Shown here: positions 4,513 to 22,675 of the stretch, in pieces | Numbering within the stretch: position 1 is the stretch's first letter | Layout of the letters: each line of letters begins with the position of its first letter | DNA from: Butyrivibrio sp. | GTDB taxonomy: Bacteria; Bacillota; Clostridia; Lachnospirales; Lachnospiraceae | Length of the DNA stretch: 37,066 nt | Assembly: GCA_023664865.1 (NCBI GenBank) | Contig: JAMPEU010000001.1 | Location: 107,955 to 145,020 of the forward strand | Direction of reading: 5' to 3' | Notes under the pieces: generated by a model | Database searches by the model: none | Told to the model about the DNA's origin: nothing | Seen by the model: the letters and a program-made list of their open reading frames with translations, nothing else | Translations under genes and position numbers: made by a program

Positions 4513-4767
4513 TCATACCAAACCGCTGTCACGCAATTCCGATTGAAACTGTTCTTCCGCTTTAACGGCGACTTCGCTTGCAAGGTCCATATAAAGAATG
4601 AACACATCTTCAAGCGACATATTCTTTTCTTTCGCAATTTCTTTCATGACTGGCTTTAACGCTTCAAGCTGGGAAGAAATCGGCGTTTTCTGTGGATCAA
4701 TATCGCCCAGCGTCTTTTCGGCATAATCATTGATTTTATGAAGAATTTCTGCATTTTCCGCTGTCAT
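4513..4767 (-). CDS. Small conserved-looking protein of unknown function (84 aa)
   Basis: Transcribed against its neighbours between serA and the DUF1015 gene. The start ATG (4765-4767) has AAGGAAG eight bases upstream; a longer reading to 4812 has no ribosome site and is not favoured. The product is acidic and wholly helical in appearance (MTAENAEILHKINDYAEKTL...), without membrane segment, signal peptide or cysteine motif. The leader (about 4815-4850) contains an inverted pair GCAGG...CCTGC that could fold. I do not recognise a family. Codon use and the good start signal favour a real gene. Confidence 0.65.
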   Translation of the reverse strand: MTAENAEILHKINDYAEKTLGDIDPQKTPISSQLEALKPVMKEIAKEKNMSLEDVFILYMDLASEVAVKAEEQFQSELRDSGLV

Positions 4768-4896
4768 ACATACACTTCCTTTTCCATGAATATTATATAT
4801 TGCTTGCAACAATCAGCCCGCAGGGGGAAACATATTTGTTCCTGCTGAGTGTGGGTTGAATTATTACTGTTACTTTGCTATTTTAGCACCAGACGC

Positions 4897-4958: not shown

Positions 4959-6200
4959 ATGGCAGACATAATTCCGTTTAAGGCGCTTAGACCGCGTGAG
5001 GATTTAGTGGAAAAAATTGCCGCGCTTCCATACGACGTATATAGCAGGGAAGAGGCAAGAAGAAAAGTAGAAGGGGATTTTTATTCATTCTTAAGGATAG
5101 ACAGGGCGGAGACACAGTTTCCGGAAGATTATGATATGTATGCGCCGGAGGTTTATGAGAAGGCGCATGATATACTCTGGGACATGGTAAGCAGGGGAGA
5201 GTTTGTCAGGGAGAAAAATGACGCTTATTATGTATATGAGCTTGTAATGAACGGCAGGTCACAGACGGGGATTGCGGCATGTGCGTCTGTGGACGATTAT
5301 GAGAATCAGGTAATCAAGAAACATGAGAATACAAGGGCGGATAAGGAAGCCGACAGAATACGCCATGTGGATATCTGCAATGCGCAGACAGGTCCGATTT
5401 TCCTTGCCTACAGGCAGAGGCAGGATATTAATGAACAGATAGAGAAAGCTAAGAAAAGAAAGCCTTTATATGATTTTAGGGCGGACGACGGCGTTATACA
5501 CAGGGTATGGGTTATAGATGATGTGGATTCGGTACGCGCCATCAAAGAAGGTTTTGCACAGGTGGATTCCGTATATATTGCAGACGGCCATCATAGGTGC
5601 GCCTCGGCTGTAAGGGTATCTCAAATGCGCAGAGAGCAGAACCCCGATTATGACGGAAGCGAAGCCTTCAATTATTTTCTTTCCGTGCTGTTTCCTGATG
5701 AACAATTGTTTATAATGGATTATAACAGGGTAGTCAAATCCTTGAACGGATATACAGAAGAAGAATTTTTAATAAAGACAGGCGAGATTTTTGCCGTACA
5801 GGAAATGGGAAAAGAGGCATATCGTCCGAAGAAAAAGGGCGAAATCGGCATGTATCTGAAAGACACATGGTATAAGCTTTCCATAAAAGAGGAGATGCTT
5901 ATGGGAGAGCCGGTAGAGGATTTGGATGTGGCTATATTACAGAAATATTTGTTAAATCCTGTACTGGGAATTCTGGATCCCAAGGTTGATAAAAGAATAG
6001 ACTTTGTCGGAGGAATCAGGGGGCTTGACGAACTTGAAAGAAGGGTAAAAACAGACTGTAAGGCGGCGTTTGCAATGTATCCGACCGATATCCATGAATT
6101 ATTTGCGGTTTCCGATGCAGGTAAGCTGATGCCGCCCAAATCGACATGGTTTGAACCTAAGCTTCGCAGCGGTATATTCATACATTCTTTGGAAGGCTAG
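4959..6200 (+). CDS. DUF1015 family protein (COG4198-like)
   Basis: 413 residues beginning MADIIPFKALRPREDLVEKI, with the family's characteristic early PYDVYSREEAR and FLRIDRAE segments. The central ADGHHRCASA and the C-terminal FVGG/AFAMYPT regions are also family-like. The biochemical role of DUF1015 proteins is not established. The HHR-containing core suggests an enzyme or nucleotide-binding protein, but this is only inference. Association with serA/serC is common in Clostridia as far as I recall, and here it lies just downstream of serC-serA, separated by a repeat and a divergent small gene. It has its own ribosome site (AGGAGAGA) and probable promoter. No signal peptide or membrane helix is visible. 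Confidence 0.85.
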   Translation: MADIIPFKALRPREDLVEKIAALPYDVYSREEARRKVEGDFYSFLRIDRAETQFPEDYDMYAPEVYEKAHDILWDMVSRGEFVREKNDAYYVYELVMNGRSQTGIAACASVDDYENQVIKKHENTRADKEADRIRHVDICNAQTGPIFLAYRQRQDINEQIEKAKKRKPLYDFRADDGVIHRVWVIDDVDSVRAIKEGFAQVDSVYIADGHHRCASAVRVSQMRREQNPDYDGSEAFNYFLSVLFPDEQLFIMDYNRVVKSLNGYTEEEFLIKTGEIFAVQEMGKEAYRPKKKGEIGMYLKDTWYKLSIKEEMLMGEPVEDLDVAILQKYLLNPVLGILDPKVDKRIDFVGGIRGLDELERRVKTDCKAAFAMYPTDIHELFAVSDAGKLMPPKSTWFEPKLRSGIFIHSLEG

Positions 6201-18994: not shown

Positions 18995-19123
18995 ATGAGT
19001 GATAGGGAAATACCAAACAAAGAAACATTAGAAGCATTTAGAGAAGGTGATGAAATGTTGGCGAATGGCACAGGGAAAAGATATACCAGCACTGCCACTC
19101 TTTTTGCTGATATGGAGGCATAA
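18995..19123 (+). pseudogene. Truncated RelB/DinJ-type antitoxin (C-terminal part only)
   Basis: 42 codons, MSDREIPNKETLEAFREG... ending RYTSTATLFADMEA. This matches the C-terminal toxin-binding half of RelB/DinJ antitoxins (IPNxETxxAxxEA...YxxxxELFxDL). The N-terminal ribbon-helix-helix DNA-binding half, about 45 residues, is absent. A ribosome site (AGAAGG) and ATG are present, so a short peptide could still be made. It overlaps nothing and is followed 2 bp later by the toxin remnant. Being only the neutralising half, it might still bind a YafQ/RelE toxin encoded elsewhere; that is speculation. Confidence 0.6.
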
Positions 19124-19125
19124 CA

Positions 19126-19281
19126 GTGTTAGTCATTACACCAACTGAAAAATTTAAGAAAGATTATAAACTATGTAAAAAACGTGGCTATAATATGGAT
19201 TTGCTGCTTGTATACTGCGTAGAAGGCGATAGACTTATGTTATACAGAACAGGAACACATGCAGATTTATTCGGTAAATGA
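19126..19281 (+). pseudogene. YafQ-type mRNA interferase with internal deletion
   Basis: Open from GTG for 51 codons. The start (VITPTEKFKKDYKLCKKRGY) matches the YafQ N-terminus. It then jumps to LLLVYCVEGDRLMLYRTGTHADLFGK, the family's C-terminus with the catalytic-histidine region RTGTHSDLF. The middle of roughly 35-40 residues, including the HxL/RECHI strand region, is missing, but the frame is retained. Normal YafQ is about 90 residues, so the toxin fold cannot be complete and is presumably inactive. Gene order antitoxin-toxin is the normal one. Confidence 0.7.
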
Positions 19282-19326
19282 TATTGGTAAAGAGATAGAA
19301 AAAGGTGTAAAGTCTATAATTAAAGA

Positions 19327-19369
19327 AAGAGTGTCTTAGCTGAAATAACAACAGCTTTGGCACTCTTTT
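19327..19369 (+). terminator. Hairpin terminator after the toxin remnant
   Basis: AAGAGTGTC (19327-19335) pairs with GGCACTCTT (19359-19367), with an inner AGCTG/CAGCT stem and a short T-run. It may also serve the convergent XRE gene. Confidence 0.65.
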
Positions 19370-19427
19370 GGTTTCTAGTTAAGAGATTAGATGTTTTGTT
19401 TTTATTATGAAGCATATAAATTATTAG

Positions 19428-19772
19428 TTACTTTTTTGACAATCGTTGTTTCATTGCTTTCACAATATCAAGTAAGTAAAGTTGTTCATCTTCCGAGAGT
19501 CCTTTGGCAGCTTCAAACAATTCTGATAGTAGTTTGGCGCTCTGAGAGGCATCGCTGGTGTCTTCCATTTCATCTATGCCATTTGTAAGCCAATTTTTGT
19601 TTATCTTAAGTATTTTACAAATAGCATTAATGACAATAATCTGTGGTTCAGTTTTATTTTTTTCCAGATTAAATATAACACCACGGGATACACCGATTGC
19701 TTTGGCAAGAGAATCTTGTGTATATCCCCTTTTTTTGCGGGCATAGCATAGCCGTTCGCCTAAAGAGTTCAT
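19428..19772 (-). CDS. XRE-family transcriptional repressor
   Basis: 114 residues. The N-terminal helix-turn-helix (about 5-60: LGERLCYARKKRGYTQDSLA, KAIGVSRGVIFNLEKNKTEP) is of the Cro/C1/SinR type, and a short linker (about 66-77) follows. The C-terminal helical segment (78-111) contains GLSEDEQLYLLDIVKAMKQR and probably dimerises. The same C-terminal pattern occurs in the divergently encoded 55-residue protein, suggesting that this protein is its partner (see findings). The ATG is preceded by GAGGTGAT on the minus strand. Its promoter and that of the divergent gene lie in the 150-bp gap with three 11-bp near-palindromes, so autorepression is likely. It need not be a phage repressor: no phage genes are seen. 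Confidence 0.9.
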   Translation of the reverse strand: MNSLGERLCYARKKRGYTQDSLAKAIGVSRGVIFNLEKNKTEPQIIVINAICKILKINKNWLTNGIDEMEDTSDASQSAKLLSELFEAAKGLSEDEQLYLLDIVKAMKQRLSKK

Positions 19773-19789
19773 TTTATCACCTCAAACAA

Positions 19790-19819
19790 AGTATAGCTTA
19801 TAAAAAAATCATTGTCAAT
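19790..19819 (-). promoter_or_regulatory. Promoter of the XRE gene
   Basis: On the minus strand TTGACA (19814-19819), 18 bp, TATACT (19790-19795). The -35 box is inside operator copy 1. Confidence 0.65.
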
Positions 19820-19870
19820 GTATTTATGCGTTGACAATGAAAATTTAATTATTAAAAAGCGTTGACAGTG
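19810..19870. promoter_or_regulatory. Three-copy operator between the XRE gene and its divergent partner
   Basis: CATTGTCAATG (19810-19820), CGTTGACAATG (19829-19839) and CGTTGACAGTG (19860-19870) fit the near-palindrome C-R-TTG-W-CA-R-TG. Centres are at 19815, 19834 and 19865. Copy 1 covers the -35 box of the minus-strand promoter and copy 3 the -35 box of the plus-strand promoter, so a bound repressor would shut both. Assignment to the adjacent XRE protein is inference. Confidence 0.65.
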
Positions 19871-19890
19871 AATAAAAAAGATGATATAAT
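19862..19890 (+). promoter_or_regulatory. Promoter of the 55-residue gene and operon
   Basis: Consensus-perfect TTGACA (19862-19867) and TATAAT (19885-19890) at 17 bp. The -35 hexamer could be misread as a TTG start codon of the downstream frame, so the real start must lie further on. Confidence 0.85.
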
Positions 19891-19924
19891 TCATTCACAA
19901 AGCAAAAGAGAGAAGCGGATAGTA

Positions 19925-20092
19925 TTGGCAAAGGAAACAAATTTGGAAGAACAAACGAATGTATTAAACGAAATTATTGAAAATGCAATAGGGCTTCCGC
20001 CTAGTAATCAGGAAGCATTGTTGTTGATTGCAAAAGCAATGAAGTATACACGAGAGTGTATAATGAGTGAATATGTAATAGAGAAAAATTGA
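19925..20092 (+). CDS. SinI-like small antagonist candidate (55 aa)
   Basis: Starts at TTG 19925 with AGAGAAGCGG upstream. The open frame extends back to 19862, but that part contains the promoter itself. The protein reads MAKETNLEEQTNVLNEIIEN..., then IGLPPSNQEALLLIAKAMKY. Residues 10-43 align without gaps to residues 78-111 of the neighbouring XRE repressor, 14 of 34 identical, including GL, Q, LL-x-I and KAMK. It has no DNA-binding domain. By analogy with Bacillus SinI/SinR it may form mixed dimers with the repressor through this shared helical hairpin and relieve repression. First gene after a strong promoter; three genes follow on the same strand. No identity with SinI itself is claimed. 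Confidence 0.65.
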   Translation: MAKETNLEEQTNVLNEIIENAIGLPPSNQEALLLIAKAMKYTRECIMSEYVIEKN

Positions 20093-20145
20093 CAATTAAT
20101 ATTTATATGGTTCATAAACAAGCCAAGAGAGGAAGGATTATGTAA

Positions 20146-20424
20146 ATGGGATTTTTAGGACTTATGGGAGAATTTTTAGGTGAAATGGTTAAAGATACAA
20201 CAGGTATCGATGTCGAAAAAGGGATAAATATTGTAAAAAAATCAGGAAGTTTAGAGGAAGCCTTCTATGCCGTTAAAGACGACATGGAAGGGACTGCTTA
20301 TAAAAGGTTTAGACAAGAATTACACTCATTAACGGATGAACAGTTTAAGCGAATACGGACAGACGATTTTATAGATGTTAAAATGAGAGCCTATGAGGAT
20401 GAAAAAAGGCGAAGAAGATTGTAA
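20146..20424 (+). CDS. Small protein of unknown function (92 aa)
   Basis: Starts MGFLGLMGEFLGEMVKD with a glycine/hydrophobic N-terminal stretch. It continues with charged helices and ends in a strongly basic tail (YEDEKRRRRL). The GGAAGG site lies 9 nt before the ATG. Second gene of the run from 19925, 53 bp after the first. The amphipathic first 20 residues could associate with a membrane, but they are not a clear signal peptide. No family recognised. Confidence 0.65.
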   Translation: MGFLGLMGEFLGEMVKDTTGIDVEKGINIVKKSGSLEEAFYAVKDDMEGTAYKRFRQELHSLTDEQFKRIRTDDFIDVKMRAYEDEKRRRRL

Positions 20425-20447
20425 ATAGAAGAGGAGGAAATTAGAAA

Positions 20448-20669
20448 ATGGGAACAAATTCTAGAGATTTAGATGAATATGGATATGCTCTTTGTGGGTG
20501 TTGTAGAAAAAAATATTCTTTGAATGAATTAGTAGAAAAATGTGAATTTTGTGGCAAATGGTTTTGTCGTAATTGTGCAAGGGAGGTTCCGGCTGGACAT
20601 GGACATGGAAAAATATGCGTCAAATGTCGCGATAAAATAAAGCGGGAAGATAAGCTGGCAAGAAAGTAG
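20448..20669 (+). CDS. Small cysteine-rich zinc-finger protein, FYVE/RING-like spacing (73 aa)
   Basis: Cysteines at 16, 18, 19, 32, 35, 40, 43, 57 and 60 give C-x2-C-x12-C-x2-C-x4-C-x2-C-x13-C-x2-C. This is the eight-ligand cross-brace spacing of FYVE-type fingers and, more loosely, RING or AN1 fingers. His51 and His53 in PAGHGHGK are extra candidate ligands. FYVE fingers are usually thought of as eukaryotic, so a bacterial structural look-alike is more likely than homology, and the lipid-binding RxHHCR signature is not present. Strong AGGAGG ribosome site. Located between the 92-residue gene and the membrane-anchored gene, 23 bp after the former, so probably cotranscribed. Function unknown. 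Confidence 0.75.
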   Translation: MGTNSRDLDEYGYALCGCCRKKYSLNELVEKCEFCGKWFCRNCAREVPAGHGHGKICVKCRDKIKREDKLARK

Positions 20670-20748
20670 TTATTTTCTATATTGAGAGATAAACTTTTTA
20701 TGAAGCTAATTAGCTACATAAAGGAAAAGTGACGAGGAGATTAAAACA

Positions 20749-21723
20749 ATGGAAGAAAACAACAAAAAAGAGAAGAAGAAAATTGGCAAAGTGCCGTTTG
20801 TTATTTGCGTTATATTTGCTTTACTATTTGGATTAGCGCTTGGCGGGGGGGCAGAAAGTGACAATGCCAAAGATACTACAACAACCGTAAGTACAGCTGA
20901 AGATAAAAAGGATTCTGGAAAAGAAGAAGCAAAAGAAGGCACAAAAGAACCGGAAGGTGTTGCAGAAGTAGAACCTGAAGTAAGGACAACTGAGCAGAGT
21001 CGATCAGAGGATACCGATAATAATTCATTAAGTGTTGGTGACTCTATTGATGTATTGGATCAGGATGGTAATATGCTTGGTGTAACTGTTACAGGAATAG
21101 AAGTTGTTGTTAATGAGTATGACGAGATATGTGCTAATATTGATTTTGAGTTAGAGAATAAATCTGATAGCGATATTTACATGGCTAATCCAACGGATTT
21201 TTTCATATTCGTAGATGGATATCAATACGGTAGGGAAATACCACTTACTGCAGTTGATGATGAGATATCTTTTGGCTATAAGATAAGTTCAGGTTACAAA
21301 AAGAAATTTCCATTTTGGACAGTATTACCTGATGAGGTTATTGAGGCTGATGATGTTGAAATATCAATTCCATATGGTCGTAGAATAGTAGTCTTCAAAA
21401 AAGATGGGATTTGGTATGAGGGCTCATCATTATTAGATACTGTAGGAATGACCCATCCTGATGGTTTATATGAATCTGTAGATGGTAAATCTCCGGCTAT
21501 AATTATAGAATGGGATTTAGGTATCGTCCGCATAGTAGGGTCTGATGGTATGTTGATATCAGGAACTATACGTCCTTCAGAGTTACCGACATACATACAG
21601 ATATCAAAGGACGATGTTGTTGAATGCGGAATGTCTTTCACAGATGATTTTTCAAGTGCTGAACTGGCATCATATGGTGATTTATTTACTGATAGCACAT
21701 ATAATTATTCTGGTACATGGTAA
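20749..21723 (+). CDS. Membrane-anchored extracellular protein with DUF4352-like domain
   Basis: 324 residues: a lysine-rich cytoplasmic start (MEENNKKEKKKIGK), then one membrane helix (about 15-35, VPFVICVIFALLFGLALGGG). An acidic, low-complexity linker (36-90, rich in E, K, T and D) follows, then an Ig-like beta domain (about 92-215, LSVGDSIDVLDQDGNMLGVT, DFELENKSDSDIYMANPTDF) like the DUF4352/telokin-type domain of surface proteins. A second strand-rich C-terminal region ends DSTYNYSGTW. It is expected to be anchored with its domains outside. Good GAGGAG site. Last gene of the run behind the XRE-controlled promoter, 79 bp after the zinc-finger gene, so it could have an additional promoter. 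Confidence 0.75.
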   Translation: MEENNKKEKKKIGKVPFVICVIFALLFGLALGGGAESDNAKDTTTTVSTAEDKKDSGKEEAKEGTKEPEGVAEVEPEVRTTEQSRSEDTDNNSLSVGDSIDVLDQDGNMLGVTVTGIEVVVNEYDEICANIDFELENKSDSDIYMANPTDFFIFVDGYQYGREIPLTAVDDEISFGYKISSGYKKKFPFWTVLPDEVIEADDVEISIPYGRRIVVFKKDGIWYEGSSLLDTVGMTHPDGLYESVDGKSPAIIIEWDLGIVRIVGSDGMLISGTIRPSELPTYIQISKDDVVECGMSFTDDFSSAELASYGDLFTDSTYNYSGTW

Positions 21724-21798
21724 TCAAGGAGGGAATATTCTATTTACGAATGATACAAATACTTTTAATTATCATATTTACAAATGATATAAACTGGA

Positions 21799-21831
21799 AA
21801 CAGGGAAAACTCGCAAAGGGTTCTCCCTGTT
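21799..21831. terminator. Hairpin between convergent genes
   Basis: AACAGGGA (21799-21806) pairs with TCCCTGTT (21824-21831). There is no long T-run on either side, so termination efficiency is uncertain. It sits between the stops of the 324-residue gene and the ABC permease. Confidence 0.4.
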
Positions 21832-21853
21832 AAGTATCTTAATTTTATGCCGC

Positions 21854-22675
21854 CTACTTAACCTTCTTATAATGATGCTCCATACTCTGAATAATCTTAT
21901 ACAGCCCCATTGCGATAGCGCACAGAATAATAATCGACGTAATCACCATATTGAGCTGGAAGACCTGAGAACCGTATATTATCAGATATCCGAGTCCGCG
22001 CCTTGCCGCGAGGAATTCCCCTATAATCACGCCTACAAGACAGAGCCCGATATTTACCTTCATATTGCTTATTATAAGCGGAATCGAGCTTGGCAGGATT
22101 ACCTTAAATAAAGCGTCCTTCCTGTTGCCGCCCAATGTGATAATGAGTTTTAACATGTCGTCGTCCGCTTGGCAGAACCCCGTATATAGATTGATAACCG
22201 AGCCAAAGATGGCGACCGATATGCCGGCGACGATAATGGTTTTAGAACCTGTACCCAGCCAGACGATGAGCAGCGGGGCAAGGGCGGATTTAGGAAGTGA
22301 ATTAAGCACTACCAGATACGGCTCCAGGATTTCCGAGAGACTGCCGTGATACCATAACAGCATGGCGGCAAAAAGGCTGAAAAACGTGACCAGCAGAAAG
22401 CTTACAATGGTTTCAAGCAGGGTGATTCCGGTATGGGTGAAAAACGATGCGTCCGCAATCATGCGGTACAAATGAGAGACAATCGCGCTTGGCGAACTGA
22501 AAAAGAAGATATCTACATAACCCATTCTTGTTGAAAATTCCCAGACCGAGAGAAAAATTATTAAAATTAAAATCCGAAAAAATGAGATAACATGATGGTG
22601 CTTGCGGTGCGCTGACATAAATGCCTGCTGATTAGTCAGGGGTTCTTTTTTATATTGGTTTGTCTGAAAAATCAT
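21854..22675 (-). CDS. ABC transporter permease (SsuC/TauC/ThiX type)
   Basis: 273 residues with about six membrane helices (e.g. FFRILILIIFLSVWEF, LVTFFSLFAAMLLW, TIIVAGISVAIFGSVI). It carries the coupling EAA-like loop GGNRKDALFKVILPSSIPL followed by GVIIGEFLAARRGLGYLI. This pattern is characteristic of permeases for sulfonates, nitrate, taurine or thiamine-precursor pyrimidines. I place the start at 22675, where GGAAGGAG lies 7 nt upstream; a longer frame to 22780 would overlap the ATPase further. It overlaps the ATPase 3' end by 26 bp and is translationally coupled to it. No substrate-binding protein is encoded in the window, so the substrate cannot be assigned. Confidence 0.88.
   Translation of the reverse strand: MIFQTNQYKKEPLTNQQAFMSAHRKHHHVISFFRILILIIFLSVWEFSTRMGYVDIFFFSSPSAIVSHLYRMIADASFFTHTGITLLETIVSFLLVTFFSLFAAMLLWYHGSLSEILEPYLVVLNSLPKSALAPLLIVWLGTGSKTIIVAGISVAIFGSVINLYTGFCQADDDMLKLIITLGGNRKDALFKVILPSSIPLIISNMKVNIGLCLVGVIIGEFLAARRGLGYLIIYGSQVFQLNMVITSIIILCAIAMGLYKIIQSMEHHYKKVK

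Follow-up and report, generated by a model that had tools for sequence, protein, structure and literature searches.

SinR of Bacillus subtilis is composed of an N-terminal helix-turn-helix (HTH) part (residues 1-69) and a two-helix hook (residues 74-111). SinI, a protein of 57 aa, carries a matching hook, and its heterodimer with SinR abolishes DNA binding, according to the available part of the source (PMC3163267). The sinI and sinR genes share transcripts and sinI is under the control of Spo0A, as given in extracts of two reports (PMC3163267, PMC5864091). In Clostridioides difficile, also one of the Clostridia, the repressor SinR is likewise encoded beside a partner that binds it; in the extract of PMC5864091, however, this partner, SinR', retains an HTH and lies in one operon with sinR.

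Comparable arrangements are described for phages. The CI-MOR systems of TP901-1 and phi13 comprise a repressor, a divergently encoded small partner and several operators, and are bistable; MOR, itself an HTH protein, attaches to the N-terminal domain of the CI repressor (PMC7250872, PMC11149083, both in extract). In the TF-smORF prophage modules, Qtip and the Gifsy antirepressors, small proteins inactivate a repressor without cutting it. The available text of the corresponding papers says that these smORFs are without homologues and describes none of them as a copy of its own repressor (PMC10432266, PMC11323111, PMC3121763). In the TF-smORF modules, moreover, the factor encoded next to the small gene is its activator, and the repressor that is targeted comes from a different gene, as far as the extract of PMC10432266 goes.

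Here we analyse a divergent gene pair within a stretch of 37,066 nucleotides of Butyrivibrio sp. (contig JAMPEU010000001.1; hereafter the window). A preliminary description of this DNA had proposed that a 55-residue protein copies the C-terminal domain of an adjacent XRE repressor, and that the two form a SinR/SinI-like pair. No paper on this repressor/small-gene pair was found in the open-licence PMC literature.

Organization of the locus

The features of the locus are collected in Table 1. The small gene is divergent from the repressor gene and adjacent to it, as first described. A mechanically listed ORF of 76 aa from 19862 would begin within a -35 box, and 19925 is therefore the sensible start; a TTG start codon is usual for the small gene.

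Table 1. Features of the repressor/small-gene locus in the window (positions are those of the window).
Feature	Position	Strand	Description
XRE repressor	19428..19772	-	114 aa; HTH ~1-68 and C-terminal helical hairpin; HTH_3 E 2.4e-12
Repressor promoter	19790..19818	-	TTGACA-17-TATACT, 11/12; second-best of 12 sites
Operator-like palindrome O1	19810..19820	.	CATTGTCAATG, exact; covers -35 of repressor promoter
Operator-like site O2	19829..19839	.	CGTTGACAATG, 1 mismatch; place filled in only some loci
Operator-like site O3	19860..19870	.	CGTTGACAGTG, 2 mismatches; covers -35 of small-gene promoter
Small-gene promoter	19862..19890	+	TTGACA-17-TATAAT, TG before -10, 12/12; best of 12 sites
Weak operator-like site O4	19892..19902	.	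CATTCACAAAG, 2 mismatches; in some loci; may be chance in window
Small protein, proposed antirepressor	19925..20092	+	55 aa, TTG start; predicted two-helix hairpin homologous to repressor hairpin
92-aa protein	20146..20424	+	~50 bp behind small gene, possibly co-transcribed
73-aa Cys-rich protein	20448..20669	+	possibly co-transcribed; zinc-finger-type Pfam matches all sub-threshold
324-aa protein, N-terminal hydrophobic segment	20749..21723	+	possibly co-transcribed; DUF5067 below its cut-off only

The AlphaFold model of the repressor places its C-terminal helices at residues 73-90 and 94-112 (pLDDT 87.5 for the whole chain). The model of the small protein, built from 21 aligned sequences, has helices at 3-21 and 26-54 (pLDDT 79.3). 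The small protein of the window had no Pfam match, and HTH families were absent from all 21 small proteins, the sole trace being RecX_HTH2 at E 0.18 in one of them. With the two-helix model, these searches bear out the earlier statement that the small protein lacks a DNA-binding domain. A PDB search with the small-protein profile returned no chain at E <= 10 except an amidase at E 0.25, and fold comparison of the model gave no informative match.

The small gene is under coding constraint. Among the 21 rows of the alignment pN was lower than pS in 210 of 210 pairs, with a median ratio of 0.45, and the ratio was 0.05-0.39 in the 12 pairs of lowest pN. The shared part of the small proteins is closed by a motif, M-x-[YF]-T-R-x-C (20039-20059 in the window), which has no counterpart in the repressors; in its tail T and R are conserved in 19/21 proteins each and C in 20/21.

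The small protein is homologous to the C-terminal part of the repressor

The 14 identities in 34 positions noted at the outset, between small-protein residues 10-43 and repressor residues 78-111 without gaps, are exact. Single-pair BLASTP with composition adjustment misses this segment, and its only match lies elsewhere (E 2.1). The gapless BLOSUM62 score of the window pair is 57, which was reached by none of 5000 shuffles (maximum 49). Taken by themselves, the two sequences are thus a borderline case.

Profile similarity between the two C-terminal segments, fixed beforehand as a test, was significant. The small-protein profile (21 distinct rows) aligned with the repressor profile (24 relatives) over 41 gapless columns, small 1-41 on repressor 69-109, at P 8.4e-7, and a second profile alignment gave P 2e-6 over 36 columns. 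The observed score of 35.7 lies far above the best of 400 column shuffles (20.3; mean 8.9) and the reversed profile (9.9). The similarity is located in the C-terminal part of the repressor, which alone gave P 8.6e-8 as against 0.2 for the HTH part. The predicted hairpins also match, their turns coinciding in the models at the gapless register (offset 68). The most conserved positions of the two families coincide as well: E16/E84, L24/L92 and L33/L101 (small/repressor) are each conserved in 21/21 and 24/24 sequences, and Q29/Q97 in 20/21 and 24/24.

In a tree of 33 columns the small proteins and the repressor C-termini form two groups with 100% bootstrap. This split indicates a single old common origin and not a fresh copy. 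Identity within the window pair is 0.42 over 33 positions, compared with a mean of 0.30 over all small-repressor combinations; the window pair is thus at the high end, and the resemblance was first met where it is strongest. The own repressor was the closest to the small protein in 2 of 18 pairs, that of the window among them, and on average a small protein is no nearer to its own repressor than to others (means 0.303 and 0.300). Changes in the small protein did not specifically track those in the repressor C-terminus (partial r 0.10 given the HTH part, against 0.45 for the HTH part given the C-terminus). Thus the proposed copying of the C-terminal domain holds as homology, but the relation is old and family-wide, and a recent copy is not supported.

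Comparison with SinR and SinI

The pair resembles SinR-SinI of B. subtilis in protein sizes and domain plan, which are equal, and in the HTH parts, which are related (compared with the available part of PMC3163267). In a PDB profile search, SinR (1b0n) matched the repressor HTH at profile positions 4-75 with E 7.9e-6; this match ends ahead of the hook. Like SinI, the small protein is without an HTH and is similar to the dimerisation region at the C-terminus of its partner repressor; a two-helix hook is predicted in both proteins here. By anatomy, a mode of action like that of SinR-SinI is well supported.

The layout differs from that of sin. The two genes point away from each other, both in the window and in the 19 loci that hold the pair in the genome scan described below, with no shared direction; the two promoters share operator-like palindromes, and the pair appears to be mobile and local in action. 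Membership of the SinI family was considered for the small protein and rejected: PF08671 (SinI) matched 0 of 21 small proteins at E <= 10 and nothing in the genome of the window, while one of the 14 control genomes gave a match above the cut-off of the model. The idea of a SinR/SinI-like switch therefore stands for the anatomy (hairpin homology, absence of an HTH, pairing) and falls for family membership and for the sin circuit layout.

Distribution of the gene pair

A scan of 84,980 species genomes was carried out with the repressor alone (residues 28-114) as query; the scan requires exact short peptide matches, so distant relatives are missed. It yielded 21 repressor loci, and in 19 of them the small gene was divergent and adjacent. 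At L075 the repressor and the palindromes are present and the small gene was not found, and L080 is cut by a contig end. Two loci of a single assembly, L076 and L077, hardly differ from each other and therefore count as one. A family search added three small-gene loci, two with the repressor (L044, L045) and one in which no repressor was found (L046).

Among 397 family genomes, apparently the same set in the search for either gene, the small gene was found in 6 (E <= 1e-3) and the repressor in 5 (E <= 1e-20). All five repressor genomes also have the small gene, on the same contig, divergent and 0.16-0.75 kb apart. For independent genomes the chance of this co-occurrence would be 7.5e-11, but independence does not hold (G561 and G867 belong to one genus). 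The co-occurrence looked for across genomes was thus found in both surveys, and the repressor and the small gene form a real pair. Its distribution is patchy, neither protein being closely matched in 144 other genomes around that of the window. Named hosts are Lachnospiraceae or other Clostridia, for example Roseburia, Blautia, Hungatella and C. clostridioforme.

Both promoters overlap conserved palindromes

Control regions were compared in 22 loci (20 distinct), with 150-275 bp between the genes, for the palindrome CATTGWCAATG. Both divergent promoters are conserved in 22/22 loci. At the place of O1, over the -35 box of the repressor promoter, a site with at most one mismatch is present in all 22, and so is a site with at most two mismatches at the place of O3. 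Further sites occur in some loci near -97, -33 and -2 from the start codon, to give arrays of up to five. In 13 of the 20 distinct loci, the window not among them, the small-gene start is overlapped by a site with at most two mismatches. The sites are spaced at repeating steps of about 19 and 31-32 bp.

Palindromes with at most one mismatch numbered 46 in 3.4 kb of intergenic DNA; the other 181.6 kb of these 20 distinct loci contained 3. Because the palindrome contains TTGACA, some of the overlap of operator-like sites with -35 boxes is built in; despite this, a -10 box follows at 17 bp in both directions. The region 19250-21900 (2.65 kb) holds 12 promoter-like sites in total, against a shuffle mean of 11.8. 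The most distant pair, L090, retains two divergent TTGACA promoters with similar boxes. In the genome of the window the exact palindrome occurs five times and only the intergenic copy at this locus lies outside a long open frame, so the repressor looks local. From these patterns, the CATTGWCAATG palindromes are probably the binding sites of the repressor.

Proposed mechanism of the switch

These results suggest, with a probability of about 70% in our estimate, that the two genes constitute a self-contained repressor-antirepressor switch, SinR-SinI-like in action and under the repressor's own control. The repressor would bind the palindromes over both -35 boxes and keep off its own gene as well as the small gene with the genes downstream. 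The small protein, a free-standing repressor hairpin, would take the place of one repressor chain at the dimer interface; the DNA-binding form of the repressor would thereby be broken up and both promoters released. As the repressor would hold down its own antagonist, a double-negative loop would result, which could be bistable or excitable. The basis for such a switch is present in the conserved pair, the homologous hairpin, the conserved palindromes and promoters, and the coding constraint; for mixed dimers of hairpins, SinR-SinI is the precedent (PMC3163267, in extract). The two proteins would bind each other, and binding would presumably inactivate the repressor and not retarget it. The genes behind the small gene may share its promoter, and the loop may be bistable. 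Against the proposal stand the absence of C-terminal co-change and of own-partner preference, the exceptions at L046 and L075, the unexplained T-R-x-C tail and the partly built-in -35 overlap.

The small protein could alternatively act as a co-repressor or retargeting partner, with a mixed complex that stays on DNA at another subset of operators, as CI:MOR of TP901-1; the repressor promoter might, for example, be silenced and the other promoter opened. The gene has the position of MOR, divergent to a repressor with several operators, up to five operator-like sites leave room for such a choice, and CI and MOR of TP901-1 act as a complex in the available part of PMC7250872. We consider this rather unlikely, because the small protein is without a DNA-binding domain and is similar to the C-terminal hairpin alone, whereas MOR has an HTH (PMC11323111) and the domain of CI that it binds is the N-terminal one (PMC11149083; both in extract).

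A distinctly unlikely reading is that the hairpin likeness reflects descent only and that the small protein acts elsewhere: its target would be RNA polymerase or a different repressor, or it would form a homodimer with a separate function. It would account for the T-R-x-C motif, which lies beyond the shared part in about nine tenths of the family, for the small gene of L046 and for the lack of co-change with the repressor C-terminus. The near-constant pairing with the repressor argues against it, and so does a six-frame search of 397 genomes: beyond its own family the small-protein profile reached only the C-terminus of a partner repressor (G705, E 4e-4; threshold 1e-3). It is very improbable that the short ORF is a leader or a chance frame over control DNA with no protein function. 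Its shortness, usual TTG start and frequent overlap with an operator-like site would fit such a frame, but the constraint in every pair compared, the profile homology to the repressor and the fairly confident hairpin speak for a protein.

Comparison with phage switches

The locus appears, by its sequence, to be laid out like a phage immunity region of the repressor-Cro/Ner/MOR type, with divergent promoters and shared operator-like sites in 22/22 loci. Cro or Ner is the second gene of such a region, and the proposed decoy occupies that place here; unlike Cro, Ner or MOR, the second protein is not a small HTH protein, and a bare C-terminal-type hairpin stands in its position. This also sets the pair apart from CI-MOR of TP901-1 and phi13, which it resembles in gene arrangement, and the homology of the small protein to its own repressor distinguishes it from the TF-smORF, Qtip and Gifsy proteins as the available text describes them. 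An HTH repressor chain of an arbitrium phage (PDB 9iaq) aligns with positions 7-109 of the repressor profile at E 4e-5, and the entry title, to which this comparison is confined, names a small antirepressor.

Genes behind the small gene and genomic setting

In the window, the close spacing and the promoter suggest that the small-gene promoter controls three further genes. For the first of these, the 92-aa protein, no Pfam, NCBIfam or PADLOC match was accepted, and no relative was found in 97 other genomes at E 1e-5. With duplicates included, there are 23 small-gene loci. In 10 of them the following ORF has the same direction and lies within about 55 bp or overlaps; in the other 13 it is further off, in the opposite direction, or not well called. 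The gene directly behind the small gene encodes a UDP-GlcNAc 2-epimerase in L064 and L066, a TRAP solute-binding protein in L068 (and, by similarity, in L070 and L072), an ABC permease in L071 (with a permease remnant by similarity in L076 and L077), and an unknown protein in L046 and the window.

In L064 and L066 the epimerase gene is followed by genes for a formyltransferase and then a PIG-L deacetylase (by Pfam in L064; in L066 the epimerase by Pfam and the rest by eye). Judged by its genes, this is apparently a surface-sugar operon behind the switch.

The neighbour genes of the pair are not conserved, save within small groups of loci. At L073 the pair lies in a prophage, which we take to be Mu-like; an Ant gene is present there together with two genes for transposition (phrog_130, phrog_310, phrog_296). 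Phage integrases are found beside the pair in L062 and L063, and L039 is an IMG/VR contig that equals the L060 contig in length. Host-type genes are found beside the pair in L064, L066, L068, L071 and the window. It appears that the cassette passes between phages and chromosomes and comes to lie ahead of various genes, and its position suggests that it controls the genes behind the small gene.

A wider proposal, which we put forward tentatively and at somewhat less than even odds, is that the immunity switch of a temperate phage, with Cro/Ner replaced by a repressor-hairpin decoy, has been repeatedly adopted by gut Lachnospiraceae to control, as a possibly bistable plug-in, operons for surface glycans, transport and secreted proteins. 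If the proposed repressor-antirepressor mechanism is right, the SinR-SinI trick, in which a loose dimer hook disarms the repressor, also occurs beyond the SinI family, in a self-contained switch whose operators and both promoters fit in less than 700 bp. The cassette would show a way for unrelated operons of gut bacteria to acquire on/off expression, and would tie the lysogeny switches of phages to surface and transport genes of the host. It would also offer a compact genetic switch for study in laboratory strains.

Additional observations on the repressor loci

A decayed toxin-antitoxin pair apparently adjoins the switch in the window (18995-19281, + strand), consisting of an ORF of 42 aa and a remaining piece, 51 aa long, of a YafQ/RelE-type toxin. 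This fragment matches PF15738 at E 1.3e-10, the best stretch covering the domain end only, and RelE_StbE slightly below its cut-off. In L039 and L060, where the small gene and the palindromes are intact, the repressor frame is broken near codon 14 in an A-run; the break may be genuine or an error of sequencing.

A second, related repressor, mostly of about 108-112 aa, follows the first in the same direction in several loci, in tandem in L071, L074, L076, L077 and L078 and 1.3 kb off in L075. It has CACGAA-type repeats upstream in place of CATTGWCAATG. At L097, a phage-type repressor (35% identical) is accompanied by a divergent small ORF, at 4681-4884 (-) and 4998-5369 (+), and these two genes are possibly an analogous pair from another family.
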